From positions 620,001 to 684,000 of the forward strand of contig NW_026570291.1 of the NCBI RefSeq assembly GCF_019649055.1: a DNA stretch of 64,000 nucleotides, given 5' to 3'. Within the stretch, counting starts at the first letter, position 1; every line of letters begins with the position of its first letter. Of the stretch, positions 4,901 to 51,613 are shown in pieces. A model generated the notes under the pieces. The model searched no databases, was not told the origin of the DNA, and was given only the letters and a program-made list of their open reading frames with translations. The stretch comes from Paramacrobiotus metropolitanus (lineage: Eukaryota; Tardigrada; Eutardigrada; Parachela; Macrobiotidae). A program made the translations under genes and the position numbers.

Positions 4901-5429
4901 CCGCCACACTTGCCGGCATCGATGTAGCAAACGCATGGAACGCTTAATTCAGACGCTGCTGATTCAAGCCGTGTACACCGGAATTAGTAAATCCAGCTGC
5001 CCGAACAGCCGTTGATATACGATTGTAAACGGGGGGTCCCGGTGATACTAAGCTTTACCAGCAATTAACCGATCGAGGCGGCTGCGTGACGTCACTGCGG
5101 CCAGGCCACAGCTACTACACAGTATACGTACACAACACAGTGCGGATTTTATTCGTGCACAATGGATCTCAACTTCAATCCGAACAAGCATAAAGCGTCG
5201 AGGCGATTGTAATTTGTAATAAAACAGTGCGGGTAGGTCGTCGTTGTATATACAAACTCAGTCTAGAAGATTAATTACGAAACGTGTCTGAATGGAAATA
5301 TGCAGTGTATAGTGTGGATAGATGAAACTAAACCGATGTTACGCTGTACTCTCCAAAGAAGAGTCCAATCCAACTTGACAAAACTAAAACTTGCGGCACT
5401 GGACAAGAAACATACCTATTGCTCTAAGC
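1959..5429. other. No supported gene
   Basis: This stretch has overlapping short frames on both strands, the longest around 2456-2842 and 3092-3454. None shows a recognisable motif, periodicity or splice-consistent extension. I treat it as intergenic or decayed sequence. Confidence 0.45.
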
Positions 5430-6296
5430 TGAAGCACTCAGTCAGCTTCTCGGAGGCACACGATAATCGCGCTTGCGACTCGGCGTTTAACACGACCGGA
5501 TAATATTCTCCATTTACACGAGTCGCCCAACGCCAAATCCTTAAAAATATGAACATCAGCATGCCCCCCTCTCAACCTTGAGGAAGAATCGATTCCATCC
5601 TATATGGTTATGACGACCATAGCGATATCCGGTACAGTGGACAGTACAGCCGTGGAGCAGTACAGCCGTCGCGATATCCAGTACAGCAGATCGACTAATC
5701 GTGTCTTCATCACCTGTTCACTCGCAGTGATAGCTTTCATAAAATGTGCGTTGACCTTTTCAGATTCAAAACTAATTAATTAATTTAAACTAATTTTTAT
5801 AAAAGGCGCTTCGCCGAGTAGCGCGCCCGCAGATGACTGTGCAGTAGAAGGTTCCTGTATTTCTGTACAACTTGCCAAAGATGTGCAATGTGACATGGGT
5901 TTGTTGTTTTCTTGTTGCGTTCGATGGCAGTATCGAGTAATACATAGCACAGCGCTTTGTGTTCAACAGAACAAAGGCTGAACATTTCAGCAGGATGAAA
6001 AACGCATGGTGAGTTCTGGTTGGCTCGCACAGCAACGTATACGTTGGGAGTAGGGAAATAGTGGTACACTTCTTCCATAGACAACGCCAGAATATGATGA
6101 TGTTCCCACACGCGCTGTAGAACAATCCAGAAAGGCGGAATCTGAGTACAGCCGAAATCGACAAAAGCTTTATCGCCGTCGATATCCTGGACGTGTGCCA
6201 AATACCACACATCGTCGCCACGATTAGCCAATACAGTGTATTGCCCAAGTTAAACTTATTATGTCCACCTTTGCAGAAAAAATACGAAAATGACAT
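5430..6296 (-). pseudogene. Decayed copy of the Tudor-like gene at 10263-11129
   Basis: On the minus strand this is a near-parallel copy of the intact frame at 10263-11129. It begins with a similar Met-Ser/Gln-Ser-x-Tyr-Phe start at 6296 and shares GHNKFNLGNT, then NRGDDVWYLAHVQDI, DGDKAFVDF, FPTPNVYVAVRA and CYVLLDTA. It has several frame breaks: near 6235 the reading moves frame between GNTL and NRGDD, and further breaks and a short internal duplication of an AGTACAGCCGT-type segment occur around 5630-5690. The 3' part (5430-5560) still aligns at the DNA level with 10300-10440. It looks like a dead tandem or dispersed duplicate. Confidence 0.75.
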
Positions 6297-7292
6297 TCTT
6301 GTAGTGGATAAATTTATGTTATTCGCAATGAAACTGTATACGCGATTCACGTCTTATACGGTTCAGAGATCATATCTTGTACTTTTATTTTGCTGGAACG
6401 CTTTTATGCACCATATCTTGTACCGAGAAGACCAGAACATACAAACTAATAAATTAATATTAATAATTTTGATCTGTGAAAAGCATTATTTCTATATTGT
6501 TGATCAGCACATTTGTCCAGCTTTGTATTGTATGTGTTGCTCACCTTTTTTAGTGGAGATTTCCACAATATCTAAAGAACGGCGAGCTCGAGTCAACGTT
6601 GATTTCTCATGCTTCTGTTGCGTATGAATATGCTGCATCATCTCTTATCCTATACACTAGACAGTGCGGCTTATCACCATTTCGAAGCATAATTAAAATA
6701 TTAGAAGTGCATGTTCGTGAACTAACAGTCCACATAATAATTTCAAAAGGGATGAACAGCTTCTAGAGGCAAATCATGTCTAGCATTGATCAAATGCAGA
6801 ACGTAGCGGCTAAGCGGCAGATCATCGAAACGTCTTAAATCCAAACTATCCCAAAATGCATCATTATCCTTTTCCACGAATTGTGTAAAATGGTGCCTGC
6901 AAAATGCGTGCATTTCATTTACTCGACTATTGCATTTACGAGATTAGCGATACTGCGTGTTTTGCGTTTTCTCGTACCGAAGTGAACTGCAGTTTCATTG
7001 ACGTACTGATACATTAGCGCTCCATTAGTCCATTAATGACGTACCCTTTTTACGCGATTCATAACAGACCAAAAGGCCGATCTGATAATAACTGGGTAGT
7101 GAGTACAGCTACCCGCGCATACTATTAAATTTGTACTTACCTTGCAGCTCAGTTGCTGTTATTACGAGTAGTGTAAGCACTTACTGTAACTAAAATTATA
7201 AAAGTATTATGCGTGTATGCTGTTTTAGGCTACAGGGCACACATACTGTACTTTTAATTTTTGTTATAATATGAAGAGTCTCATATTCTCAT
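6297..7292. other. No supported gene
   Basis: AT-rich spacer between the decayed Tudor-like copy and the F-box-like exon. I see no coding, RNA or repeat signal I can support. Confidence 0.45.
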
Positions 7293-10262: not shown

Positions 10263-11129
10263 TTAAGCGTTTTCATTACCCGAACAATAGGCATTCAAAA
10301 GAATCTCGCGGTTGTCTTCGCTGTAGCTGAAGCATTCAATCAGCTTCTCGGAAGCACTCGATAATCGCGCTTGTGATTCGGCAGTCAGCGCGAACGGATA
10401 ACGTTCCCGCTCAACACGTGTTACCCAACGCCAAATCCTTAAAAATATGAACGTCAGCATACCGCTCTCAACGTTGACAAAGAATCGATTCCATCCCATG
10501 TGGTTTAACAAACCGTAGCGATATCCAGCACCGTGGAACAGCAGATCGACAAATGTCTTCATCTCCTGCTCGCTGGTAGTGATAGCTTTTATAACAGCAG
10601 CGTTGACCTTTTCAGATTCAAAACTAATTTTTATAAAAGGCGTTTCGCCAGGTAGCGCGCCCGCGGATGGCTGTGCAGTAGGAAGTTCATGTACAACTTG
10701 CCAAAGATGTACAACCTGGCAGAGGTTTGTTGTTTTCTTGCTGCGATCGACGGTAGTATCGAGTGAGACATAACACAACGCTTTGTTTTCAGTAGAACAA
10801 ATGCTGAACATTTCACCCGGATGAAAAACGTATGGTGAATTCCGGTTGGTTCGCACGGCAACGTACACGTTGGGAGTGGGGAAATACTCGCCGAAAGTCT
10901 GATCGTTTGCTTCCTCAGATAACACCAAATGATGATGTTCCCACACATACTGTAAATCAATCCAGGAGGGCGGAATCTGGGTACAGTCGAAATCGACAAA
11001 AACTTTGTCACCCTCGATATCCTGGATGTATGCCAAATACCACACATTGTCACCACGATTGATCAGTACCGTATTGCCTAAGTTAAACTGATTATGCCCA
11101 CGTTTGGGGGAGAAGTACGAAGATTGCAT
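10263..11129 (-). CDS. Tudor-like domain protein, lineage-specific family
   Basis: An intact 288-codon frame. Residues about 25-60 (NRGDNVWYLAYIQDI, then EGDKVFVDFD and IPPSWIDLQYVW) have the spacing of a Tudor/Agenet-type beta-barrel: an N-terminal strand with W-Y-L-A, a V-F-V-D-F strand, and an aromatic W-I-D-L strand. A second half-repeat follows (FPTPNVYVAVR, then FHPGEMFSICS, then ALCYVSLDT). The C-terminal half is helical with no recognised motif. The start is chosen at 11129 because the decayed copy at 5430-6296 keeps the same ATG and flanking residues. Tudor folds bind methylated Arg or Lys, but no aromatic cage can be assigned here, so the function is open. It may continue into the F-box-like exon at 7293-7962 through a splice site upstream of its stop. 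Confidence 0.6.
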   Translation of the reverse strand: MQSSYFSPKRGHNQFNLGNTVLINRGDNVWYLAYIQDIEGDKVFVDFDCTQIPPSWIDLQYVWEHHHLVLSEEANDQTFGEYFPTPNVYVAVRTNRNSPYVFHPGEMFSICSTENKALCYVSLDTTVDRSKKTTNLCQVVHLWQVVHELPTAQPSAGALPGETPFIKISFESEKVNAAVIKAITTSEQEMKTFVDLLFHGAGYRYGLLNHMGWNRFFVNVESGMLTFIFLRIWRWVTRVERERYPFALTAESQARLSSASEKLIECFSYSEDNREILLNAYCSGNENA

Positions 11130-12979
11130 TCTTGTAGCGGATAAATATTATGATAATTATTTGCAACAAAATCGTATACGCGATTCGCGTCTTATGCGGT
11201 TCATAGATCAGAAACGTGGATTTGTTCCCTTGGAATATTCATATGTAGTCTGGCAGACAGAGACATTTGCGTCGGTAATGATGAGCCTGTGCTTATATTT
11301 CCTCATTTATATAACTATGGTAACTTCCAGAGTATTCTGTTTTTAGCATTGCAAATAAACGAAATGATTAGGTCAAACGGTATAGGAGTCAGCACTGCTT
11401 ATTGTGCCGAGCAGAGTCCAGGCGCAGACTTAAGGCAGAAGAGGCAGGCTGTTGAATCGTAGTGCATATGAAAGAGTCTCCTTCATATGCATTACGGTTG
11501 AATAGAAGATTTTCGCCGATGCACTGGAAGAGCACAAAGCCACAAGCCCAAAAGGAATTCAAAGCCACGAAGTGACGCCCTGCACCAGGCATGTACCTGC
11601 GACAGCTGTGAGTCTCCTGACTCTCCTCGCACGGTAGTCGTCTCGCCTTTCAGTTAGCTCTTATTTGAGGCGCACTACTCAAACTTCGTGCAGACAAAGG
11701 CAGAAAATACAATGGTTGAAAGACTGGCTCTGTCGACTGTCTGCACATACTTATTACGTGGTTATCACCCGTAGTTGTCATACATACGTAGCTAATATAT
11801 CTATATTTATACTTTACATTTCTCGCGATCGCACTTGCTGAAACAGCACCACAGTACAGGAAGTGACGCAGCCTCGGTCAGATTCGACACACATTAACGA
11901 AGGAGTATCCTGCATATATATGCAGTACAGTTGCGTAGAAAGCATTTCCATTCATACTAAACAAAAACATAAACATTTACAGTACATTTACGTTTTAAAT
12001 ATCTTAAAACACTTCGTAGCCATACGAAACAAGACGCTAAATAACGGATCACCGTTTACTTCGACAAACTACGAGAACGCTCTCCTGCGCCGGCTCCCGT
12101 GCGTCAAATTAATATTGGCTCCAATATGTTCGAATGTTCCTCCCTTGATAACAGGTAGCCTTTTATGTTTTGTACTAACTGTGAAAAAAAATAAGCAAAT
12201 GTAGATGGTATTTAACAGTAACGGTTATCAATTTTACCCATTGCTGCACAACGGGTGACGGGGATGCTAATTTGCAGCACTTTAGATTTTTTCTGTATCA
12301 TTTACCTGATACACTATACGCTGGAGTACCGGGAATCGTTAATTAGCGTGTGTTTCAGGGCGCTCTATTGTAAAAACTGTTGCTTGAAATCGCACATAGA
12401 CAATTCAGAAACCAAACATCACATACCACGGAAACTGACGGCCGCACAACAGGGCATATTTGATACAAATTACTCGAAGCTGGTTTCGTTCCCAGACGGA
12501 TGCCGCGTTTGAATTTTGATAGTGATCCGCTGGCGGCGGTGCAGTATTTCTCTGTTACTACTTACCTGTTTTCTTGTTGATTTTCCTGCCCAGTTCTCCG
12601 ATAACAGAGAGGCTTACTGTCCGAAAGGCCCCAGAGTCTCAATTCACCAACGGGACGAAACAGGTATACTTGAGTACTGTAACTGCGGTTACGCTGTCCG
12701 GGCAGTTGGATTTACAGTACAGTACTTCCGGTGTACAGTGCTGTACACGGCTCTAATCCTTAGCAGCCATGCCGGCAACTGGCAAATATGACAGATCGTT
12801 GTTCAAACGTAGAAATAAAGGCTCACCCTTTTGTAAATAATACCGGTTGCACACCATGGCTACCTTTCAGTTTATAGTAGTGTGGCTAGACGCGTATAAT
12901 ATCTTACTGTATTTTTGTCTAACAATTGTTCATCGACCGGAGCGCAGCGAAGGTCCTCTAATTCAACAAAAGTGGAAAG

Positions 12980-14548: not shown

Positions 14549-15109
14549 TTTGAAATCAAGCATAAAATAGTATCATGTGTGCAGTAACATTCATAACAAA
14601 CGCAGCATAAGTAAAAGACAACATACATAAAAAGCGTAACACAAGTAACATGACGATCATAACAAGCATAACATAACTTACATAATAACAAAACATACAT
14701 AAAACCTTTTGGCACGAACGGCTCGTCATAGTTTTGCCTTGCAAGATGTTCGACAACCAAGTCGATTGTTTCTGGCCAGCAACAGAGTCATAATTCAAGA
14801 AAATGCGCAATAAGCCAGATTTCCAAATACAGGATAAACAGCAAAAGTTGTGAATTCTTCCGTTCATTACAAGTAATGACCCGTATTCCAGGGCCAACTG
14901 AGCCCCATCGTTTTGGGCTCAGCTTATCCTACCAGTCGGGTCTCTTTGGGGCCAAAACACACAAAAAAATTAAAACAAAATCGAATGTATTCTTGTTACA
15001 GATTCAAATACAATAACTAGGAACATTCGGTCTCTAAATCTCGCTTGCTTGCAATGTTGGACGTGATGTTGGTATGGGTGCAAGAGGAACAGCAATCGTA
15101 TTTGCAGCT

Positions 15110-15148
15110 ATTCGTATGAATGCTGCACAGTGCAGCATTCATACGAAT
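15110..15148. repeat. Perfect 39-base palindrome, 19-bp arms with 1-base centre
   Basis: The 19 bases at 15110-15128 are the exact reverse complement of 15130-15148, with a single A at 15129. No gene is nearby. A palindrome this perfect suggests a recent foldback event, a template-switch artefact or a foldback transposon remnant. Confidence 0.9.
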
Positions 15149-16230
15149 CATTGTTACCACTTACCAGTGCTGCAGAAAGGAGGAATTTCATCGTTCCAAA
15201 ATGCGGTGAGAATTAATCACGTACTAAACTTTTTTGGACATAGAGCTGAACGATAAATTTAGGGCTCACTAACAAGAAATCTCGACACTGGATTCTTGTT
15301 GATTACCAAATTTTAAATAAACTTCCACAAAACGTCAGGCAATAAAAATCTTCTTTTGACCGCTGCCGCTATCTTAAATAACTATTCCCTGTGCAGCGGA
15401 AGCTGAACTCGACGCTGGGAATTGGATTCTGGGATAAACAGACTGAATTTGTGCTTATGTATACATAAGTACATTTGACGGTACATTTTGTCGGACCGGG
15501 TCCTTTAATCTGCTGCACAAAATATGAAAAATACTTATGTGTGGATGAAGTTTTTTTGAAAGCCGGTGAAATTTTATTATTGTTAGTCATAGATATGGCA
15601 TAGGAGTTAATTCACTGTTTCCCTCAAGGACAACAACTGACGAGACAGTAAAGCCTTTGAGCTATCAATCCGCTGTACAGCTAGCGGTCCGTAACAGTAG
15701 CTTTGAATTACTTACCTTGCATATCAACTGTAGTTTCAGTGAGTGCTTGTTAAATTTAATAATTCGAAGGTTGAATCTGGTACAGTTTTAACTGATCACT
15801 GAGAACAGCAGTCATCCGTTAAGTACCAAATAAACACAATAATATAAAGAGATGCTCCCAAGTCAGGCTTTATTACCCGGCTCTTTTATACAAGTACGAG
15901 TATTTTTCTTTTACCTTCGTCCTGTGGTATAACATTGGCAGACGTAATTATGTCTCGCCAATCTTGCCATTACATGTATTTTTTATTCACCTTGAGTGTA
16001 GTGGACAGCATTACAAAAATACTATCAAACTAAAAAGTTATCTCTATTTGAGCGCGTGGAGACAGTGGCGTATAATTTGATGAAAATCATACTAGAAGTA
16101 TGGTATGCGTATAACTTTCGCATGCGCTTTATTTATTCAAAACGTTATTAATACCATCACCAGAGCTGGAAAAGTGGAATATGGGGTACCTTGTGGAAAT
16201 AGTTCCCCTTAGGAATTCTGTACGAGTATG

Positions 16231-16344: not shown

Positions 16345-16613
16345 TGTTCCGTAATACTATGCAAGATGGATCCGCTGCCTATTGACCTTTTCCATGACGT
16401 TGTCCCTAAAGACAGGTTCAACTTTGGGCAAAAGTTTGAGTACTTTGACAGTAATGCCAAGACACCGTTACTTCTGCAGAATATTGACTACTTTAAATTA
16501 ATTTATTGAACACGCACTAAGCGGTTCGCAACAATGAGTCCAGTCATTTAATTGGACCAGCTGACAGATAGATCAAACCAAAAACAACACAATGTGGAGA
16601 TAAAGCTATATTT

Positions 16614-19600
16614 TCATTTCACTTGACCTATATCTAGTAAAGAAGACAACCGTTCGTCCTCTGTGGCATCGTATTCAGGAAGCACTCCACTGAACTCATC
16701 ACTGCTTATCAACCAGTAAGTCAACATGGCGCCTTTTCCCTGTAAAACCCATGGCAAATGGCAATATTCTTGTTAATTTAGAATTTTAGACCGCAAATGC
16801 GAGTACGCGGAGTACCGCGTTATCGATTTTCCATCCTATGTATACCTTGACGTCACGTAATCCTCGTTCAACAATCCGATAAATATTAAATTCATCGAGT
16901 AAAACTTTTGTAGCTTCCGACAACTGGATTCGTAAAGGTAACGATGAGCTCTCCATCCTGGAAGCAGTATTGACTGCAAATCAAGAAGCGGCGTTAACGG
17001 TAAGACAAGTGATCTGGACTGAATTCGTAACCGCGTACCAGTATCACCAAATAGGCAGTAGTGAGGCATTTTCAGTCCCACTATGCCAGCTATCACAGGC
17101 CCGCTGTTGATTCCAATCCGTACTTTCAGCGGCTCCGTAAGAAAATCAGAAATTTTCACACTTATAACTGTGCTAAGGATGCTTAAAGCGAGATTGGCAA
17201 TTTCCGCGGAATGTTTGTTCCCGTTACGGTTTGGAATTCCGGAGACGCACATATAAGCGTCGCCAATTGTTTCCACTTTGTACACGTCAGAACTTTGTAT
17301 TATGACGGCATCGAAAGCTGCAAAACACTATTATAGTATTATACGGAGTGAATTTTTATTGACGTTAAATACTCCTACCTGAGTAAAGGTCATTCAAAAG
17401 TTTGACAACTTCAAAAGGTGTGTGAGCAGAGGCAAAGGTTGTAAAGCCAACAATATCTGAGAAGAAAACCGTGGCACTCTCGAAGTATTCAGGCTCCACT
17501 AATTCGCCACTGGCTAGCTTCGCAGCCAAAGCAGCCGGAAGCATATTGTTCAGCAATGATTCCAGACTCTTGGTCGTCTTCTCCAGATCTCGGGTTCGCT
17601 CCATGACTTTTTCCTCTAAATTAACTGCATACCGTTCTACCGCCACCATCATCGTATCCAAGATGCTTTTCTGCTTGGGATTGGCCATTTTCAGCTGCTT
17701 TAAAATCTCGGAAAACGTCGGTCGATTGTGGGGAGTGGTATCCCACGTGGACCAAATCAGCGCTCCGATTTCATCGAACTTCATGGCCAGTTCGTTATAG
17801 TACGCCGGGCGCAGTTGCTCCGATTTGATTTGCTTCAGTAGCATTTGCGGGGATTTGTAGAGATCCTCACTGAGCGCTTTCAGTACGGATTCATACGGTT
17901 CACAACCGGCGAACGTCTCATAGACGACGACACCGTAGCTGTAGACATCGGCGGATTTCTGCATGCCACCGGCGGCGTAAACTCCGGCAATCCACACCAG
18001 GGCTTCGGGAGCGGTCCAGAAGAGCAGTTTGTAGTAGTCATACTGGCTGATCTCTTGATTCTGCTCGTCTTGGAGCGCGCTGTGCACCCGCTCAAATGCG
18101 TAGAATTCAACCTTTTGGGCTTTATGCAGAGATAGTTGTTCCCAGTCGCCAATGACGACGTTCCACCGGGCATCAATATAGCAGCAGCTTGTTGTCAGCT
18201 GACCGTGGATAATGTTTTTCTGATGCAGGTGAGCCATGCCTTTCGCAATGTCGTTAATGATCGAGTTGCGAAAGATGTTATCCAGGTTGAACTTAGTTGT
18301 TCGCAGAATGTCGGTGAGTCTACCTGTAAAGAATCCGACATTTGCTAGTATTTTACAATTGCAGTTTACTTACATATGTTTCTGTTTCTGGGAGCTAAGT
18401 TTTCAGTCGCTGTTAATAGTGGCAGGATTAAAATAATGTTTCTAAAATTTTGAGGCACGATATAAGGTAGGCACGATATAAGGTAGATACAAGGTAGATA
18501 CAGTTAAATGCACCATTTAGCATAATTACTGAAAATTAATTAGCAGTTTGTCAAGTGGTTTCACTGCTATGAAAAAATTGTACAAACTCTTTATACTATA
18601 ATTAGTCCGCAGTTTCCGAAATTGGTCACAATGAATTGCGATCACTTATTTTAAAAATTTGACATATACTGTACATAGTGCTTATTTCAATACCTTTTGT
18701 AGGACATATACTGACCACCTTCCACCGTTCCTTCCTTTCACAAATTCCAATAAATTTCACGAGATTCCCCTGTGCGATCTCGTCGCGAAAGCGGACCAAC
18801 GCAATTTTGGCCTGCCAGGTCAGTTCCTCAGGATTCAAATGCGCGCATAATGGCGTCAAAAGGAGATTATCTCCGATAATCTGCTGAATAATTTCCCGTT
18901 CAAATCCGGTCGCCATCCAATCAATTATCGTCGAACTGGGGCCAGACTGTTTGGTCTTGGTGCTGGTGACAGAACCTATCGGCTTCATTTGCGTTTCGAT
19001 CTGATTATTGGACAAGATGAATGAATTTGTTAGGGCGCTCTTATGTTTCTGATACTTGGAATAACCCAACACTGACAGGACGATTAAGACAACCACCATA
19101 ACAAGAACGATGACAATAGCGGTGGGCAATTTCCACGCGTCACGGGAACCGTTTTCTACGGATATAGCGTACTCCGTCATCTCTTTAACGCTTTGACCCT
19201 GACAAATCATCTGGTTGAGCGCTTGCTGCTTGACCTGGTTAAAGGCGTTGTCGTTGAGCGGCACTTTCAAGAGATCACGGGCCACAGTTTGCGCTAAAGG
19301 GTCACTCAGTAAATAATCCAGCATACGGTACAGTTCCATGGCGACGGTGCAGTTACGCATGGTTGTTTTACGGATGACAAAGTATGTGAAGCCGGCAATG
19401 GGATAGGTCAAGTCCCTGGAAGATTGTTCAGATCAGATGTTAATCGCGCACTAAAACTGGGTGACGCATCCAGAGCGGATTGAACGTTTCTCAGGTTCGG
19501 ATAAATCAGGTAGCCGTCTTTATTTTGTAGGCGGGCTTCCATTAGGTTAGAATCTCTTGCATCAGATGTTCCCAAATACCCGATAGAGTACTTGTTCTCC

Positions 19601-21257
19601 ATGATAATAGCGGCTACGCCTCGGCCGGCGTTGCCGCATCGGATTGTTAAACTGGCGTTCCATTTTACCGGTTGTCCGTTTTTACACCCTGCAATGTTCC
19701 AGTTAAGCGCTATAAAATATTACTGTAGGCCAGCATTACAAGGCTTCCATATATTTCCATTGGTTATAAACTTATTAATATAATTAATGACACGAATCTA
19801 TACTTTGCATATTGTGAAACCTTTTGCAGTTCGCTTTAACACCGTACAATAACAAAAATGCATTTACGCACGTAGTAATTATATTAATTGCATGATCGAG
19901 AAATGGTGATACGGACCATCGCTAAACCTTGAATAAGTGGTTTTCCACATAGGGCTGAAGCGTCCCAGCGCTCCTGAGAATATCTGCGTTGTTCCTGAGC
20001 CATCGGCACGTACGACCACGGTGATTGTGCGGTTAACATCACGCAACGCTTCATTGTACATCACAATCAAAGGATCGTTCCAATAGATTATCGTCCCGTT
20101 GAATATACCCACGAGTGCCTCTTGGGAAAGGTTTAAACATCCAGATAATTCTTGAGAAGCGTTGCTGCAGTTAGGAGAAAGCTCAGGTAGATTGTACGCC
20201 AGCGAGACCGATCTAGAACAAAAATGCCGAATCAAGATTATTTAAAGCAGTACAAAGCTTCGATTCCCCAGCAGGTCACAGTTTAGCGGAAACTGTGGAC
20301 TTCCACCTGATAATAAGAATTTTAAACAATAAATGATAATTATAACTTTTAATGTTTTCATTATACCGTATACCTACGTCTGGATTTCGTAAAATGTTTC
20401 TGTAAAGGCTATTTCTCTGTAAGGGATCGAATACCGAACGATAAAAATTGGTATATTTAAATACCCGGGACATTTCAATACGGCTTCCCGCTAAGCTATA
20501 TATAGGTTCAATTTCAGAAATCGTCTTTTGACGTGCGTTATGATAAAAGCATCTTACGCGGCCATTGTAGGAAACATTTGGAAGTCAGGAAATGCATCGT
20601 ACGTTGCATTATTCAGCTCCGCATCCGATCCTGCCACGTCGAATTCACCGGTTTTCAGTTTGGCGATCCCTTCTCCGCTGCCGACCCCCTGATAGCTAAA
20701 CTCTACTCGCACAAACTTTGAACGGTAGGCTTGATAAACAGGTTTCCAAACCTGCTAACGAAGCAGACCACTTATTTATGTACAAGTACGACACGCAAAG
20801 GAGTCAGTAATGATTCATTTTAGCGTATAATGCGTTTTAGCGTAAAAAACATGTGTATAATAAGGTCACACTTGCATTGTTGCCGCGTGGTACAAAAACT
20901 ATGCCAAAGCATAACAGAACATCACAAAGCTCCAAGCCGTTCAAAAAACCTGTATGGTCTGACCATTAAATTCAGCACCGGTGAAATCATCGCAAGCTCT
21001 TCTAACCACTCAACTGTAAATTATAGACGCCATACGGTTAATAAGCGTCTTGCTGAGGAAAATCTTTTTTTGTATTTCTGGTAACAAACACTGTTGTGAC
21101 AAACACTGTGACCGACCTTATAAACATCAAGGGGCAACGTCGAACCTCCAGCATGAATTAATGTCGATGGCAGTTCGGCATTCAGAAAATGCTTGGGCAC
21201 AAATACAAACACAATCAGCAAAACAGCACACTTCCGTTTTTCCGATGCAATCTTCAT
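16614..21257 (-). CDS. Receptor guanylate cyclase with PstS-like phosphate-binding ectodomain (copy A)
   Basis: Eight exons on the minus strand: 21257-21117, 20751-20558, 20212-19917, 19688-18694, 18323-17379, 17317-17039, 16973-16846, 16739-16614. Splice phases agree, giving about 1034 residues if one missing base near 19413 is allowed for. Order: signal peptide (1-28); PstS-type periplasmic binding fold (about 30-385); one membrane helix (about 399-421); kinase-homology domain with HGQLTTSCC and GDWE in place of HRD and DFG, so a pseudokinase; coiled-coil linker; class III cyclase with [18 protein letters not shown] and a Cys before LFGDT. The Glu and Cys fit GTP use. Bacterial PstS phosphate contacts have counterparts: T40, S72, D90, R180, D182, S184, G185, T186. 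Inference: an extracellular phosphate or similar oxyanion controls cGMP production. The frame break is probably an assembly deletion, since copy B reads through there. Confidence 0.9.
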
Positions 21258-22161
21258 GATCACCCAGAAAACGCAATTTTAAAGTCCCTTAATTACGTAG
21301 GTTTAAGTTAACGAATTAAAGAACGCAGGCAGGTGGAAGAGTTGGGATTATACGCAGTTGCGTGCGGGAAAGTGATAACCATTTTATTGTCACGTTCGGA
21401 ATAAGCTTCCAACAGATCCGGGATAATTGGGATTGTCTAAGCCGGGCAGCCTAATAGTGCCGGTAGGGACCCAAAGAAAAGAAACGCATCGCATCGCGGC
21501 CGTTCAATCGATTTCGACAAGCCGCACGTATGCATGGGCGCTCTGCCTATAGAACCCTGCCCTGCCATCTTCCTTTAATCAAGTGCAACAGTATTGTGAC
21601 CTCGATCGAAGGCGCGTTTTGAATCTGCCATGGAATTCTCAGCCTGAGCATTTCCTCAAAAGGAAAATCTGATCCACCCCTTAATGCTGAATTGCTGCAC
21701 GCAAATCTGCACAAACGATAATTACGAGTACTGTACTTTTAGCAGGCTGACAACAGGCCTGTACCGCAGCATCTTATCTCATATTGTTATACGTACATTA
21801 TTAATAAGAGCTGTCAAGCTTTTTAAGCTTTTTGCAGTGAATCTATTATTGCATAAAAGTTAAAATATGATTTCCTTTCTTATTCGAATTATTTTCCTAA
21901 AAGATTTTCTGGAAAGCGTTAGCAGATTTCGAAATTATGTTTTTTTGTGCTGTTCCTCTTCTTTACATTAAACATCACAGTTGTGAAGTTGAATTTATAT
22001 TCACTGTTGTTCTCGCTGTTCCTACAAATACTCTTCATATACTACAAAGTAGTACGTATTAGGTAAACGCGTTGCAGTTACAGCTAATTACACGGTTACA
22101 CCAAACCATGCGAATAGATATACGAGATAACATCAAGCAGTATACCAACTGTGCCTCATAC

Positions 22162-22272
22162 CTTGTAGATCTCAATGGGCAAAGTGGCTCCTCCACTGTG
22201 TATATAATGCACCGGAATGCACCATCGTATCGGAAATATCAGACTCGTTGTCGCTATTAATACGGCGAACAT
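22162..22272 (-). CDS. Extra signal-peptide exon of the PstS-like cyclase (alternative first exon or remnant)
   Basis: A 37-codon frame starts with ATG at 22272 and ends at a GTATGAG donor after 22162, in phase 0. It encodes a hydrophobic leader followed by HSGGATLPIEIYK, which matches the end of exon 1 of copy A ([13 protein letters not shown]) and of copy B. The phase lets it splice to exon 2 of copy A (20751-20558). It sits about 0.9 kb upstream of exon 1 of copy A. The exon at 30712-30818 holds the same relative position before copy B and resembles this one more than it resembles either exon 1. Either each gene has two alternative first exons, or a third receptor was lost apart from its first exon. 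No matching downstream exons of a separate gene are visible. Confidence 0.7.
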
Positions 22273-23512
22273 CTCTTGAAAAATAGCAACCGCACGTTTA
22301 AAGGCATTGATCCTTCGTTAACAACTGGCGCCGAGCAATGTCTTTAACAGCTTAAGATGCAAGAAAATCCAGGCACATTCTGGAGCGTCACCATTTCACC
22401 GGCATGATGCGAAATACGTACACATTTCCTGAAATGGTATCAAGGACAGTAGCATCTTAATTAAACTTGTGCTCAGATGCAAAAACCTACTTCCGCCACG
22501 CAAGGTATTTGAGCAGGCTACTGCATATTTGTATCGTAGGAAAAAGCACCGTCTTTCCATTACTGCAGTTGTGGATACAGTGCGAATATTGAACCTGCTC
22601 TGCCAGTCCACGATTCAGCGTGCCGGTTCAGTTTCATCCAAAACCAGATTAAGTCAGCACAATGTACAGCTGGGATCCGGTTCGGGATAAAATTCCCATC
22701 ATAAGGGCGCTAAGTAGCGGTAGGGCTGATGGCCTCATACTTACGATTACCGCTTATGCTGCTTTTGAAAACTGAGACTGACGATGGAAAGGCAATAAAA
22801 TTAGCAAATTAACCATTTTTCATAAACTCGTACAATTTCCGGCAGGTGAATGGTGCATGCTCTAACGGCGTGCTCTTGTACATGTTTGCTTTACATGCAA
22901 GAGGCGCTGCTGGTATAGTAAAATAATGGAGCAAAGTGTGTGCGTCTGAAATAATAACCACGACCTTCAAGACTGAAATTTTGATTCTGGTGATCTTTAG
23001 TGTGCAACATAACTTTCATTACAGTAAAAACACACGATTATTGCCTCGATGGCTGTTTTCCCGGCTTTCGGCAATTCGATTATCAAATAAGTATCTGTAC
23101 TATGCAGCTTTCCCGAGCTTTCTAATTGTAGCATCTTTATTTTCGATAAATTATCCTTAATCAATTTCCAGAATGTAATAGTAAAAAAATTGTTCATACA
23201 TCGAGCAAAAGAAACATTTCAGACAATAAAATGTCGGTCGGTGTCGGTTCATTTTCCCGCTGCCTCAAGGACAAATGCTTTATGTAGCACCTTAGAGCTT
23301 ACACTAGCAAATCATACATCGTATAAATCACGGTAATTTCTGATTTCTTAAAGTGTTATTCGTCATTGAGACATAAAACAGCGTCAGCAGAATATCGTAA
23401 GCTGTATCAGTGTTATGCTTGGAAAAGCATCAGCTTTAGTAAAACCTTCACGCCAACATTGTTATTAACATAAATAAAAAGGGGCATCGTCGATCGAAAC
23501 GGAAATAGGATT
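22273..23512. other. No supported gene
   Basis: Spacer upstream of the cyclase A first exons. It would be expected to hold their promoter, but I cannot point to a specific element. Short frames only. Confidence 0.45.
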
Positions 23513-24302
23513 CTAATTATTAAAGAAAAGTAATATACTAGAAACCATGTTCACTGCGAGGAAAAGCCCAAACATGGATGCCGCAAAGGTTTTTACAACG
23601 TAGTGTACTTTGTCGATGATTTCCCAGTTATCATCGACAAACTCCATGAAGTCAAGGCTTTCCTCGTATAAAATACATGGTATCAGTAATACTACGACAG
23701 CACATATCAGTACGCCCATGACTGTCAGTATTCCATGTACAGGATTAACGATCCCCAGAAGCTTGTACCAGAGGCTATCGGGATTCGGTTTCCAGGATAA
23801 CGCACAAGTACTAGTATTGGAGGTCTTTGCAGGCACATCGGATTTCGGCGAGACTGGGTTATCTTTCAACGCTACGTCTGGAACCGGGCAGGTATCGGGA
23901 CCATGTGGAGCGATTCGGTCAGTAAGTAACTGAATGTTAGAACTATAAATACAAACAAACACGCTAAGCTCTTCAATGCTACAAAATTCACTAGTAACCA
24001 CTCTGGCTATTCGTTATTACAACAGCTATAAAAATCGCAGTTTTTCGAAAAAAAACACGCCATCTTAAATCGTTATAATTTGCTGGTATACTGACTGATC
24101 TTCGTTACTTCATGACTTTGACGTAGTGACTGAGGATTTGCAGATGGGTTTGTGTTGTCAGCGTTGCCGCAGTCACATTCAGTGAACTGCGAAGCTGTTG
24201 ATCATCAAAATCCAGGAATGCGGTGGTGCCACAGTAGCCACTAAACGTCATGATAACGGTAACGCTGCACAGCAGCGGCAGTAGCTTTGCAAAAGTGATC
24301 AT
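23513..24302 (-). CDS. Small secreted-start, two-pass membrane protein with DTCP motif (paralogue 1)
   Basis: Two exons on the minus strand, 24302-24109 and 23942-23513, joined in phase 2 give 207 residues. There is an N-terminal hydrophobic leader and a short extracellular part with an N-x-T site. A conserved segment NIQLLTDRI, then DTCP, opens exon 2. Two hydrophobic spans follow (GILTVMGVLICAVVVLLIPC and a span near the C-terminus starting ASMFGLFLAVN). The gene at 50720-51613 has the same two-exon layout, the same intron phase and the matching NIQILVDRI and DTCP motifs, which supports both models. I do not recognise the family. The gene lies between the two cyclase copies on the same strand. 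Confidence 0.75.
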
Positions 24303-24879
24303 GTCGGGTATTATAGCTAAACCGACGACAGACCTATGTCGTTCCGCAGCACGAGAAACTTTTCTAAAACAGCTGGCAAGAATTTTAAAGGGCTTAAGTT
24401 TAATAAGATGTAATTATGCAGGCCCGCGAAATGCTCCTGAAATGACAACTAGTCCTTAACCTCCACACGCGTCAGTTTGGCTTCGTCTTCTGATGATGTC
24501 TTTTATGGTGAAGCAGTTGACAGCAGGCGGATGCGCGCAATAGACTTAAGACTATGTACGGGAATTCTCACATCAATCACATTCACTTCTCCAGTTCTTT
24601 GAAAAATTAGCCATCAATCAACTAGAATGCGAAACTTGCTTCGTAACCGCTCCGTAACCGCTTGCTCCGTAACAGCATATCTTTTAAAACGTTTCGTCTA
24701 AACCAGTTGTGTGTAGTCTGCAGATGAAGTATTTTCTACGTCATTCTAATGTCCTGCACGAGTACATCTGATTTTCTGCCGGATGAATAAGGTGTACATT
24801 GCCGCGTGAGTAGAACTAAGCTTTATTAATTATGTTTTTCGTGATCAACAAAGATCATCGGATGTGATTGGATTTTTAC
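24303..24879. other. No supported gene
   Basis: Spacer between the start of the DTCP gene and the stop codon of cyclase copy B. It must include the 3' flank of copy B and the upstream region of the DTCP gene. I see no distinct signal. Confidence 0.45.
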
Positions 24880-27800
24880 TTATTTCACTTGAGTGGAATC
24901 TAACAACAAAAATAACTGGGCATCATCTGCGGAGTTATATTCAGGAAGCACTTCTTTGAACTGATCACTGCTTATTAGCCAATAAGTCATCATCGTTCCC
25001 TTTCCCTGAAAAGCAGAAAACAGCTATAAATAAATGTTCATCAGTGGTTTACTTTTCTGGTTTACTTTTCTGGTTGTACCTTCACACTCTGCATTCCTCG
25101 TTCTACCATGTGATAGATATGGAATTCATCAAGCAGTAATTTTGTCGCTTGCGACACCTGGATTCTTAAAGGCAGAGACGAGCTCTCCATGCGGGAAGCA
25201 GTATTTACTAGAAAAAACCCGAATGAAAAAGCGTTCTGTCTGCGCAGGAACGTGTTCTGTAATATCGTGCAGTGTGAGAACGACAGTTGCATACCGGTAT
25301 CACCGAAGAGACAGTAGCGGGGCATTTTCAGACCCACTATGCCGGCTATCACAGGTCCGCTGTTAATCCCGATCCGAACTTTCAGTGGTTCCGAGAGTAC
25401 CTCGGATATTCTGACCGACACTACAGTGTTCAGAATACTTAGAGCCATGTTGGCAATTTCCGCTGAGTGCTTATTGCCATTACGCTGAGGAATACCCGAA
25501 ACACACATGTAGGCATCACCAATTGTTTCCACTTTGTACACCTCTGCACTTTTCATTATCACTCCATCAAAAGCTGCAAAAAAAACCTGCATTTAGAAAC
25601 ATCGTATATTGGAAACAAATAGCCTGTACACGCTGCTCATCAGCGCAAGTGTAGCAAAACTGCTGGTACCCAAAAACTCTGATCGATAAAAGCATTGCCT
25701 CTTTACCTGAATAAAGGTCATTCAGAAGTTTCACAACTTCAAAAGGCGTATGTGTAGAAGCAAACGTCGTAAAGCCGACGACATCGGAGAAAAATACCGT
25801 GGCACTCTCAAAGTACTCAGGCTCAACCAGTTCTCCATTGGCCAGTTTGGCAGCCAATGCCGCCGGTAACATATTATTCAGCAGTGATTCCAGGCTCTTG
25901 GTTGTCTTTTCTAAATCTCTGGTGCGTTCCATCACTTTCTCTTCCAAAGTAGCAGCATAGCGCTCCACGGCTACCATCATGGTGTCCAGGATACTTTTCT
26001 GCTTCGGATTAGCTTTCTTTAGCTGTTTTAAGATTTCCGAGAATGTTGGACGGTTTTCTGGATTGGCATCCCATGTCGACCAAATTAGCGCACCGATCTG
26101 GTCGAACTTCATGGCTAATTCGTTGTAATACGCCGGTCGCAGATGATCGGATTTGATTTGTTTCAGCAGCAACTGGGGAGATTTGAAAAGGTCATCGCTC
26201 AAGGCTTTCAGTATATGTTCATATAATTCACAACCGGAAAATATCTCGTACATAACGACTCCGTAGCTGTAAACATCAGCGGGTTTCTGCATACCACTAG
26301 CGGCATATACACCCGCTATCCAAATTAACGCTTCGGGAGCCGTCCAGAAGAGCAGTCGGCAGTAGTCGTATTGGTTAATCTCTTGGTTCTCTCGTCGTTC
26401 AAAACATTGTGTATTCGTTCGTAGGCGAAAAACTCAACTCTGTTGGCTTTGTGCAGAGATAGCTGCTCCCAGTCTCCAACGACGACATTCCAACGGGCAT
26501 CGAGATAGCAGCAGCTTGTTGTCAACTGGCCATGGATAACGTTCTTTTGGTGAAGATAAGCCATGGCTTGAGCAATGTCTGTGATAATGGAACTTCGGAA
26601 GATGTTGTCCAAATGGAATTTTGTGCTGCGTAGGATGTCCGTTAACCTACCTTCAAAAATCGTAATACCTATATCATTAAACAGGCGTCCAGCTGTTCAT
26701 GCGAATGTCGCAGTTTAAACATTTACTGGCCGTCGCAAAATTAGATCTTTCTAAGTGCAGATACTAGAATTCAAATTCTCCAAACACTTTGGTCGTACAA
26801 CGGTTCCAAATAAAATTACTCGTACTCGTCTGAGTCGTCTTTACTTATATTTGTATGCATACTCGTATAGTGTTACAACAGAATACCTGTATGTATCCGA
26901 AGGCAAAATCACAGGCTTCATTACCCTACATCAACTTTACCTTTAGCGGGACAGATGCTAATAACGTTCCACCGCTGCTTCCGCTCACAAATTCCAATAA
27001 ACTTTAATACATTTCCATGATCAATGTCATCGCGAAAATGTACCAGCATGACCTTCGTCTGCCATCGCAGCGCCGTAGGCTCTAGATGGTAGCATAATGT
27101 CGTCAGCAGCAGATTATCCCCTATCATTTGATGCACAATCTCCCCTTCAAATCCCGTTATCCAGTCCACCACTTCTCCCGAACTGGGACCCGAATGTCTG
27201 GATTTCGTGCTAACGGCCGATCCAACCGGTTTGGCGTGCGCTTCGATGACCGCTGCGGGAACGATAAAAGAGTTGGTCAGCGCACTTTTATGCTTTTGAT
27301 ACTGCGCAAAACCCCACACGGAAAAAATGATTAAGCCAATAGCCATGACCAGAACGATGACGATGGCGGTAGGCAGTTTCCAGGCGTCATGAGAACCGTC
27401 TTCTAGCGACACAGCGTAATCCGTCATTTCTTTGACATTATGGCTTTGGCATGTCATTTGAAACAGCGCTTGCTGTCTGACCTGATTGAAGACGTTAGCG
27501 CTCAGTGGGACTTTCATCAGATCCCGTGCTACAGTCTGCGCTAAAGGATCACTCAGCAGATAATCAAACATTCTGTACAGTTCCATCGCAGTGGTGCAGT
27601 TGCGCATAGACGTTTTTCGGATTACGAAATACGTAAAACCGGCGATTGGATACGTTACATTTCCCCGCAGATTGTTGAGGTCGGATGTTAACCGTGCGCC
27701 GAAATTGGGCGCTGTATCGATAGCCGCTTCGACGCTGCGGAGAGTTGGGAAAATGAAGTGACCTTCTTGATTCTCCAGCCGAGCTTCCATCAAACTGGAA

Positions 27801-29792
27801 TCACGTGCGTCAGATGTGCCTAAGTAGCCGATGGAGTATTTGTTTTCCAGAAGAATAGCGGCTAAGCCACGCCCCGTGTTGCCGCATCGAATATTCAGCG
27901 TAGAGTTCCATTTTATTGGTTTTTCGTTGGATTTACATCCTGAAAATGTTAAACCAGATAATAAATCAGCGGAGAAAGCTTTAGAAACCGTAAATTACTG
28001 TAATACTTGATTTTGGCTTGCGTACCATCGCTGAATTTGGAATAGACTGTTTTCCAAGTATTGCTGAATAGCGCCAACGCTCCTGTGAATATCTGGGTCG
28101 TGCCTGAACCGTCAGCGCGAACCACAACGATGATTTTGTTATTGACATTGCGTAAAGCTTCGTTATGCAGGATAATTAATGGATCATTCCAGTACTGGAT
28201 GGTTCCGTTAAATATCCCAACAAGGGCTTCTTGGGTTAAGTTTAAGCAGCTGGACAGATCGTGTGATGCCGTGCTGCAGTTGGTCGAAAGCTCCGGGACG
28301 TTGTATGGTACCGACACCGACCTGCCATCATATTATTCTATCACCAACTTAATATTATTATACTTGTCTGTGCAATCAGTAATCATGATCAGCATTACTG
28401 CGGGACCATTTGGTTCTTTAAATACTATTCTTTGCCCTCAAAATTCCTTTAACTACCGCCTACCGGCATGCAGTCTAACTGTCGCAACAGTGAAGTGTGG
28501 CAAACGGCACGTTCCTAAATAATTTTCAGTACTGGATAGCCGCCTGCAGAACAAACTGCTGTCTCTCCGAATCAAATTATTACTTCGAGCGGTTTAACAT
28601 TAAAAACGGGTGGTTAACGCGATGTAAGCCTTTTCACATCATTCTAATATCGCTGATGCACTACGCAGGCGGTATGTGCCTTACCCTGCCATTGTGGGAA
28701 ACATTTGGAAATCCGGAAATGCATCGTATGTTGCATTATTCAGTTCCGCATCCGACCCCGCCACGTCGAATTCACCGCTTTTTAATCTGGCAAGGCCTTC
28801 CCCGCTACCTATGCCTTGGTAGCTGAATTCCACCCGCACGAATTTAGAACGATGTGCTTGGTAGACGGGCTTCCAGACCTGCTAATCATACCAACATTCG
28901 GTGCATGAATGCATTTTGCAGTATACACCTATATCAGCCTGCAAAACGGAAAGTGAAAATTCAACCTGGTTTCTGGAAATAGGCAGCAGCTTAAACTAAA
29001 CCGGTAACAAAATCTTACCGCGGTTATCCAAATTATATACAGATAGTTAAAACCGCGAAGGCAAGGAAGTTTTGATGTTTCGGGCAGATCCAATGATGTA
29101 CTACGAGTAGTATTTTTATTTATACTTTGCGTGCATTCGTGACGACATTTATTAGTTACTGAAATCACCATTACGACTTAATTATAAGCATGCTCTTAGT
29201 AAAGGTGAAAAGGTTTATGCACTTTCGATACCTCGGATGCCTTTTAACACCGGCTAAACTATACTTATCTAACCCCAGTACTGTATACTGTAGAGCTGAT
29301 GTTAAGAGTTTACGGTACAAGTATGCAGGATATCTATAGATTGCTTTATACAATTGTATCTACAGAGTAGATTGCTGTTACTACTCGTACTCTACCTTAC
29401 GGTTAGAACACGGCATTCCTGCCGTACCGGTTGGGTAAATCTGCCAGCATAGAAGTGTACGCAATGTACTAGCATGTACAAATAAATTCAACTGCTGCTG
29501 ATAGTTACGGTATGGAGTTAACAAAACTTCGTTTACAGCATAGCTAATAGTAGGTTTTTACGTTTTGTATACATGTAAAAACACTAAAATTAAACTATTA
29601 TTGAGAAGGATTGAAAACTGATACTGCAGTTCAGTCATAGGCTGTCCGACAGAAACAGACCTGGTAGACATCAAAGGGCATTGTAGAGCCTCCGGCACGC
29701 ACAACTATCAATGCTTGTGTGTCAGCGTCTATGATCCCGGCGAATATGAGCAAAAGTACAATCGTAACACAAAAGTCTGCCAAGAAGGCCAT
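24880..29792 (-). CDS. Receptor guanylate cyclase with PstS-like phosphate-binding ectodomain (copy B)
   Basis: Eight minus-strand exons: 29792-29661, 28878-28685, 28321-28026, 27939-26941, 26650-25707, 25573-25295, 25207-25080, 25005-24880. Exons 2, 3, 6, 7 and 8 have exactly the lengths of those in copy A. About 1032 residues result if one missing base near 26390 is allowed for, where LNDE should run into NQEINQYDY. Domain order matches copy A: signal peptide, PstS-like fold ([32 protein letters not shown]), a membrane helix starting [17 protein letters not shown], pseudokinase domain, linker, and cyclase with FFSDVVGFT and VETIGDAYM. The C-terminal tail [17 protein letters not shown] differs most from copy A. 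The two copies are a tandem duplication with constrained catalytic domains, so both are probably functional. The frameshift is likely an assembly error; copy A is intact at that position. Confidence 0.9.
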
Positions 29793-30711
29793 CGTCGGAA
29801 GTGTGCTATGAATGTCATTGTCGTCCAGCAGACATGTTTCTGGAAGCGAGGTTTAAACCAAATCTCCGCTACAGATGCTGCTTCTATGGTTAAATGAGCT
29901 GGATCAAAATCCCACATGTAATCAATCAGTGATCGGCTTACCGCCATGATCAGAATAGATGAACTAATAAAAGATTCATGCTGGAGATAATTGGGATTTG
30001 CGTTTGTGCTTCGACAGAACGGTGTCGGTCATCGGATGTTACTCGTATTACTCATAGTCAGGTATACAGGAGGCGTTTCAAAGGCTCAATGCGTATGGAG
30101 CTAATCTCATTATCTGACTTCGCCTGTTTACGGTCTTGCATCAAATCGGTATACCTAGTTACAAGGGTTAAGCCCAGAAAAATACTAACAGCCGGAAAGT
30201 GTCGGTTTCACAAATCACGTGCAATGCTGGCTGTTACACGGGAAGTAGCTCACTTACGTGTTTGCAGCGGAGCTAAAACTGGCCTGACGTTGAAGGTTAA
30301 GTGTTATGAATTATATACATTCAGGATCTTTTGTATACAGATTTGTTAGCAATTCGCGCACAATCGTTTTTAAATTTAATCAGTACAAAAAATAGGCAAG
30401 CCTAGATAAAGCAGATCACTGATTCATTATCAATTTTACTGGACATGGAAGCGGTAAATAATTTACTCGGTATACACTATATAGCCTTACGTAGTCCATC
30501 CGTTTACCGTTCTTTTTCGAGATTAATCAAGCAATGCACAAGCACAATCAAGTACACAAGAAAATTAACATGTAAACAACTACGAGCGAAAGTCTTCAAT
30601 AAAAAAAATGTAAAAAGAAACGCTCTGGTTTTCTGAACGGTACTCCTACTGTCTACATATATGAACTGTCTCGCATAACAACGTTGCAGTTCGTGTCTCT
30701 AAATGCAGTAC
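29793..30711. other. Spacer between the two candidate first exons of cyclase B
   Basis: No further exon is recognised here. If 30712-30818 is an alternative first exon, this is its intron and also holds the promoter of the exon at 29661-29792. Confidence 0.4.
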
Positions 30712-50719: not shown

Positions 50720-51613
50720 ATGACTGTTGTTACGAAAGACGGTAGTAGTCCTGTACTGCTTGTTTGGATATTCGTTTTCTCTTTGTCGTATGGATCTGGT
50801 GAATTGTCTGGATTTACCAACGAAGGACCAATATGCAGTCAGCGAAGCTTGAATACAGACTATGGAAAGCAGCACGGACAACTGGAGCTGTTAGTTGACT
50901 GTGTGAGGGCATTGAGGTAAAAAAGGTTAAACAGCTGCTGCTCCCGAAGCGCCTGCTTTGTTAATGAGCAGTAATTATAACTCTGCCTTCTGGTTCTGTA
51001 GATGTCTGCTCGAATCATATCCCTCTCAAAAAATAAAATTTCTTTGCCTCTTGGCCTCGTCGATCGGTTCTAAAAATATCAGCGTAAATTACTAGTCGCG
51101 TCCCATTTCAGTTTCAACATACAAATACTTGTTGACCGAATAGCCCACCATCAACTGTCCAAGGACACTTGCCCGGCTTCAAAATTCACACCCAGGGACG
51201 GACTGCCACAGTTTGATCGGGATATACCGCCTGCAAAAACGATACGCGCGGCAGCGCCGGATGTCGCTCAACCATGGGACAAAGATCCAAGCAGCTGGGG
51301 GTACAAGATCTTCGGGTTTAAGAGCGGCGGCCATGTTTTTCAAACATTGGCGATCATTATGTTGGCTTTTATCTGGGGCTTTATAATTCTGATAGTTCTG
51401 GGTACTATTGTGTTCGTCATTTTTGGACTTGCAGGGTTGAGTTCAAATGAGGATCGGGAAAATGCGCGGGAAATCGTACAAGTTGCAGGTTTTGTCGTGT
51501 TTTTAATCTGTATTATAATCTTGATTATTAACATTATTACCAAAATATTTTCCAGTGATAAGTTGTTTTCTTCGTCCCAAGAAAACACCGATGGCGATGG
51601 GAATGTTAACTAG
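50720..51613 (+). CDS. Small secreted-start, two-pass membrane protein with DTCP motif (paralogue 2)
   Basis: Two exons, 50720-50916 and 51112-51613, joined in phase 2 give 232 residues. A hydrophobic leader (about 12-28) is followed by CSQRSLNTDYGKQHGQLELL, then NIQILVDRI and DTCP. Two long hydrophobic spans follow (FQTLAIIMLAFIWGFIILIV onward, and VAGFVVFLICIIILIINII), and the tail is Ser/Asp-rich. It shares exon layout, intron phase and motif order with 23513-24302, on the opposite strand and about 26 kb away. Unknown family. Two AATAAA signals lie in a duplicated 24-bp unit about 200 bases after the stop. Confidence 0.8.

Follow-up and report, generated by a model that had tools for sequence, protein, structure and literature searches.

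Two genes in a 64,000-nucleotide stretch of the tardigrade Paramacrobiotus metropolitanus (contig NW_026570291.1 of RefSeq assembly GCF_019649055.1, positions 620,001 to 684,000; hereafter the window) are, as judged from their sequences, receptor guanylate cyclases with a PstS-type domain in place of the ANF-type ectodomain, a combination described in no title or abstract opening among the open-licence papers listed in searches for it or for its parts in tardigrades. Both genes lie on the minus strand, gene 1 (copy A of a first-pass annotation of the window) at 16614-21257 and gene 2 at 24880-29792, and a second pair, copy C (C71:558239-562882) and copy D (C71:567338-572237, stop codons included in both), is located on the same contig (C71); these four genes are referred to as the array copies. 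With a probability of roughly 0.6, the predicted proteins would act as outward-facing phosphate (oxyanion) receptors that make cyclic GMP (cGMP).

Gene models and domain architecture

Both window genes consist of eight exons of closely similar lengths, with GT-AG introns at matching positions (Table 1), which agrees with the two eight-exon genes that the first-pass annotation had drawn at 16614-29792. In gene 2 and copy C, a single uninterrupted frame in exon 4 runs from the ectodomain through the membrane helix into the kinase homology domain. Since this exon covers the later portion of the PstS domain as well as the membrane helix and the first half of the kinase homology domain, which continues into exon 5, the ectodomain and the cytoplasmic parts belong to one gene. 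Copy C is the sole intact copy of the four: it is open from the ATG through 1034 codons, and a single Pfam scan placed PBP_like_2 (4.6e-23), PK_Tyr_Ser-Thr (PF07714; 2.5e-23), and Guanylate_cyc (7.2e-63) in one 1034-amino-acid protein. The earlier claim that each window gene forms one spliced frame stood only in part, as copy C is open end to end whereas both window copies are frameshifted, with one base missing from a G run of exon 4 in gene 1 and one from exon 5 in gene 2; in copy D, exon 4 contains a gap of 8 bases.

Hydropathy analysis of copy C revealed windows above 1.6 at residues 9-29 and 393-424, with one further single window at 900 within the cyclase, so that one membrane helix follows the hydrophobic N-terminal start. 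Kinase domain matches were obtained in gene 1 and gene 2. Active kinases carry HRD and DFG motifs, for which the kinase homology domain of copy C has HGQ and GDW and thus lacks kinase catalytic residues. The Guanylate_cyc profile (PF00211) matched gene 1 with an E value of 1e-62, a cyclase exon of gene 2 (C71:645296-645586) with 1.3e-27, and copy C with 211.9 bits. Moreover, the linker and cyclase matched human ANP receptor 1 at 3.4e-73; the two share stretches of 17 and 15 residues, which are catalytic motifs of the cyclase. Judged by these matches, the cyclase end is of the ordinary receptor guanylate cyclase type. The membrane helix, pseudokinase, and class III guanylate cyclase proposed in the first-pass annotation were therefore all recovered, by hydropathy, motifs, and Pfam. 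Matches to ANF_receptor (PF01094) were absent up to an E value of 1 for genes 1 and 2, in searches whose HMMER filters drop most matches above 0.1, and up to 0.01 for copy C.

PstS family, fold, and anion pocket

The PstS-like ectodomain that had been proposed from the letters of the window was supported by profile and sequence searches. PBP_like_2 (PF12849) matched both window genes (E values of 1.2e-21 for gene 1 and 4.5e-20 for gene 2), and phmmer against the PDB returned PstS of Yersinia (9e-31), Burkholderia (1.1e-27), and E. coli (2.2e-26), with almost the whole chain covered. The DING structure 2q9t reached an E value of 0.0035 in the same search, compared with 9e-31 for PstS, and membership in the DING group was rejected. 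Structure prediction, which had been named beforehand as a test, yielded a PstS fold from an input alignment that included 55 prokaryotic PstS rows: the AlphaFold2 model of the ectodomain (predicted local distance difference test score [pLDDT], 88; predicted template modeling score [pTM], 0.87) had PstS proteins as its best matches, with a VIA-align Z of 39.7 and 2.2 Å over 312 residues to PstS 8ods and a best Foldseek E value of 8e-32. Because the PstS rows could steer the predicted fold, the sequence match is the firmer evidence of the two. The predicted architecture together with the PstS fold can be regarded as nearly certain.

Eight residues of E. coli PstS, T10, S38, D56, R135, D137, S139, G140, and T141, which we take to be phosphate contacts, have identical counterparts (8/8) in each of the four array copies. 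The counterparts listed earlier (T40, S72, D90, R180, D182, S184, G185, and T186) are all present, in a numbering that fits gene 1. Those of S38, D56, R135, S139, G140, and T141 are invariant in all 56 rows of an alignment (A3) that contains 55 prokaryotic PstS rows, while F11 is replaced by M or L in the array copies. The ectodomain also carries insertions relative to E. coli PstS, for instance around one 12-residue stretch and before GCK. In copy C, the ectodomain contains six cysteines downstream of the signal stretch, together with nine N-glycosylation motifs, which fits a secreted animal protein.

Selection and history of the array

Nonsynonymous (dN) and synonymous (dS) divergence was estimated by Nei-Gojobori counts, which are rough at saturation. 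Between the two lineages (gene 2 and copy D versus gene 1 and copy C), ectodomain dN was 0.139-0.147 at saturated dS (3.5 and 4.5 in two of the four pairings and not computable in two), and cyclase dN was 0.100-0.120 with a dS of 1.40-1.50. Within the lineages, 5 synonymous and 0 nonsynonymous changes separate the ectodomains of gene 1 and copy C, and 20 synonymous and 15 nonsynonymous changes (dN/dS of about 0.21) separate those of gene 2 and copy D. Read from these codon counts, strong long-term purifying selection on the receptor genes is clear.

The block at window 16434-29867 is duplicated at about C71:558.1-572.3 kb in pieces that are 90-95% identical, and weaker matches (76-82%) extend over window 14749-15890. 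Identity between gene 1 and copy C is 98-100% over exons 1-5 and 89-92% over exons 6-8, and their dS increases from 0.02 (ectodomain) to 0.31 (cyclase), suggesting gene conversion between the two. Downstream of copy C, a match resembling cyclase exon 7 was observed at 47% identity (C71:556506-556676; positions 7-177 of locus L011), close to the border of the segment analyzed, which may represent a decayed member or a piece of another cyclase gene.

Distribution of the family in the genome

The genome searched comprises 169.8 Mb in 533 contigs, and locus counts were taken from the best-scoring candidates, so that they are lower bounds. At least eight loci with a PstS-type ectodomain were found, including four on C71, one on C4, two on C22, and one on C39, and three queries (PF12849, copy C, and one C22 ectodomain) landed in the same eight. 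At the window pair and at all six other loci, kinase-like and cyclase-like exons adjoin the ectodomain in the same order. Given the E values and this domain order at eight loci, chance is excluded as the source of the architecture. The C4 gene has intron positions in common with the C71 genes at the junctions inspected. Instead of the metal-site stretch FSDIVGFT, the C39 gene and the two C22 genes carry MHMTMVEYAEL, FYCNLVEYGNL, and LRCSLANYDAI, and these relatives are possible pseudo-cyclase receptors.

Counted exon by exon, ANF_receptor matches occur at 86 places genome-wide and Guanylate_cyc matches at 200 or more, and ordinary receptor cyclases are thus likely to be numerous as well. In the available part of a 2017 comparison of two other tardigrades, a 284-member family (276 of the members from tardigrades) was annotated as receptor ligand binding domain (PMC5531438).

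Proposed function and alternative explanations

The receptor would be a dimer with the PstS domain outside, and its two lobes would close on phosphate or a closely related anion, for example arsenate. Lobe closure would shift the membrane-proximal ends and switch the cyclase, and external phosphate would thereby set the cGMP level, with either the ligand-bound or the ligand-free form as the possible active state. Tight phosphate binding is characteristic of PstS proteins, and such a receptor would thus be expected to face dilute outside water, in a chemosensory role, or a low-phosphate lumen, rather than the body fluid. An inorganic ion as ligand has a precedent in this receptor class, considering that, in the available part of PMC5225109, nematode receptor cyclases are described as direct ion sensors, with chloride binding to the ectodomains of GCY-8 and GC-A. 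That the PstS-type ectodomain binds phosphate or a close oxyanion seems probable.

Several observations weigh against a phosphate-to-cGMP receptor. The structure model depends on the PstS alignment fed to it, and frame breaks occur in three of the four array copies of the present assembly. Outside the array, the C4 gene keeps five of the eight pocket residues (D56, R135, D137, G140, and T141), with S, G, and A at T10, S38, and S139, respectively, and the C39 and C22 loci are strongly diverged. The aligned part of C39 has Q, N, and E at T10, S38, and D56 and ends short of the R135 loop; in the C22 genes, one of which matched weakly (E values of 0.018-0.07), the first-lobe motifs are unrecognizable, and the sole C22 row over the loop reads RLDRYLST for RADGSGTT. 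Thus, not every family member would have to bind phosphate. Such altered pockets at related loci, as well as the insertions and the replacement of F11, would also suit a receptor that kept the PstS fold and an anion pocket for a different physiological ligand, such as arsenate, sulfate, an organic phosphate, or a phosphorylated metabolite; in the array, however, all pocket residues checked, including D56 and D137, are kept in the four copies, which is hard to explain had phosphate recognition lapsed, and we consider this alternative unlikely. Retention of these residues between lineages with saturated synonymous sites likewise argues against a PstS domain that is merely structural, in a receptor driven by peptides, partners, or other receptors and with phosphate at most a cofactor, like chloride in the natriuretic peptide receptor. 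That arrangement, which would accord with the dispensable ectodomain of some nematode receptor cyclases and with chloride binding by the GC-A and GCY-8 ectodomains (available part of PMC5225109), appears quite improbable.

The three broken copies might also indicate that the array is decaying and that no copy yields a working receptor. Against this, copy C is open over its full length, the three breaks sit at three different places, and the ectodomains of gene 1 and copy C are separated by synonymous changes alone. Moreover, the break of gene 1 falls in a G run, and the assembly was built from Oxford Nanopore data with Illumina reads and Pilon polishing (available part of PMC8277472), with a frameshift from single-nucleotide misassembly on record for another of its genes (available part of PMC11191345). 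Assembly error is therefore a plausible, if unproven, cause of the breaks, and a fully decaying array is very unlikely. Bacterial contamination or a chimeric contig would agree with the finding that, outside the host genome, close matches were all prokaryotic, in comparisons with the PDB and with a prokaryotic collection. Its probability is nevertheless negligible, as introns split the PstS domain itself, the C71 and C4 genes have intron positions in common, the eight loci are spread over four contigs, the nearest prokaryotic rows are only 36-37% identical, and 6 of 10 scanned frames in the window matched PHTF1/2, sulfatase, GH16, a tyrosine-kinase-type domain, or copia-type gag.

Origin of the PstS-type domain

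The closest prokaryotic match, among the best 80 of at least 567 relatives, was an Anaerolineae record with 36% identity. A quick tree of 61 rows, 56 of which were drawn from these best 80 relatives, placed the long-branched group of three tardigrade rows next to nine Chloroflexota rows (98 by the Shimodaira-Hasegawa-like approximate likelihood ratio test [SH-aLRT]), with warnings of a long branch and odd composition. Owing to the long branch and the odd letter make-up, the Chloroflexota placement is unsafe, and no donor phylum is claimed. Within this prokaryotic-only comparison, the domain may have been taken up from a prokaryote directly, may have arrived via another eukaryote, or may reflect older eukaryotic descent. 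A tentative scenario, to which we give slightly less than even odds, is that the tardigrade lineage acquired a prokaryotic-type PstS domain and fused it to a receptor guanylate cyclase, giving a cell-surface phosphate receptor that subsequently duplicated and diverged to other ligands, with degradation of the cyclase metal site in some members. Elsewhere in the genome, on C3, a cluster of SAHS-like exons gave 16 matches, the top one having tardigrade SAHS1 as its best PDB match (2.2e-20); SAHS is tardigrade-specific according to the available part of PMC11191345, and these genes support a tardigrade host. A nematode host was rejected; a search for the N-domain of nematode cuticle collagen gave no match, which is weak evidence, since this search drew a blank in the control genomes as well.

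Comparison with known systems and significance

Animal receptor guanylate cyclases such as GC-A/NPR1 and nematode GCY proteins have the same layout of a single membrane helix followed by a kinase homology domain, a linker helix, and a class III cyclase. They mostly carry ANF-type ectodomains, whereas the ectodomain here is of the PstS type (PF12849) and PF01094 had no match in the scanned proteins. With bacterial and archaeal PstS, the genes share the whole-length sequence match, the predicted fold, and the oxyanion residues; the bacterial protein is a free or lipid-anchored transporter subunit, in contrast to the membrane-anchored, cysteine-bearing, intron-split receptor ectodomain predicted here. 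The DING/human phosphate-binding protein group is alike in broad fold (Z of about 31) with a much weaker sequence match, and its members are not known to carry a cyclase. The vertebrate phosphate sensors CaSR, PiT2, and FGFR1c share the proposed role of reading external phosphate and are different proteins (available part of PMC8199323).

The molecular mechanisms of extracellular phosphate sensing were described as poorly understood in a 2021 review, the available part of which names no PstS-type sensor and contains "Pst" 0 times (PMC8199323). If the proposed function is true, it would show that a protein used by bacteria to capture nutrients can be turned into the sensory part of an animal receptor, and the family would offer an obvious candidate for an animal protein that senses extracellular phosphate directly, as well as a natural switch from phosphate to cGMP whose pocket is well studied.

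Table 1 Exons of the two window genes (window positions) and diverged relatives elsewhere in the genome (contig positions)
Feature	Content	Position	Strand	Remarks
Gene 1 exon 1	Signal-peptide-like start, AGGST motif of PstS domain	21117..21257	-	GT donor, ATG at 21257
Gene 1 exon 2	Pocket segments YQGVGSG, GSDA	20558..20751	-	
Gene 1 exon 3	Phosphate loop RADGSGT	19917..20212	-	
Gene 1 exon 4	PstS domain remainder, membrane helix (19061-19138), first half of kinase homology domain	18694..19688	-	One-base frameshift near 19414
Gene 1 exon 5	Kinase homology domain remainder, linker helix, cyclase start	17379..18323	-	
Gene 1 exon 6	Cyclase domain	17039..17317	-	
Gene 1 exon 7	Cyclase domain	16846..16973	-	
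Gene 1 exon 8	Exon 8 with stop codon	16614..16739	-	Stop codon ends at 16614
Gene 2 exon 1	Signal-peptide-like start, AGGST motif	29661..29792	-	ATG at 29792
Gene 2 exon 2	Pocket segments YQGIGSG, GSDA	28685..28878	-	
Gene 2 exon 3	Phosphate loop RADGSGT	28026..28321	-	
Gene 2 exon 4	PstS domain remainder, membrane helix (27308-27385), first half of kinase homology domain	26941..27939	-	Single open frame
Gene 2 exon 5	Kinase homology domain remainder, cyclase start	25707..26650	-	One-base frameshift near 26391
Gene 2 exon 6	Cyclase domain	25295..25573	-	
Gene 2 exon 7	Cyclase domain	25080..25207	-	
Gene 2 exon 8	Exon 8 with stop codon	24880..25005	-	
Relative L015	Diverged PstS-like	C22:985281-986078		Degraded cyclase metal site
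Relative L016	Diverged PstS-like	C22:415490-415708		Degraded cyclase metal site
Relative L014	Diverged PstS-like	C39:367628-368747		Degraded cyclase metal site

Other features of the window

Scanning the window for Rfam families (at the gathering score) and for tRNA genes returned 0 matches. Small putative membrane proteins are encoded at window 23513-24413 (minus strand) and 51074-51613 (plus strand), with a common DTCP stretch preceding the hydrophobic region; the two scanned frames of these proteins had no Pfam match over the cutoff. The blocks at window 5427-6372 and 10325-11210 are related to each other (81-85%) and contain long open frames, of which the one scanned (10263-11147) had no Pfam match up to 0.01. 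Direct repeats of 305 bases, 99.7% identical, at window 52709-53013 and 54080-54384 flank a copia-type gag frame (53087-54019) and probably represent the two termini of a short retroelement of recent origin.

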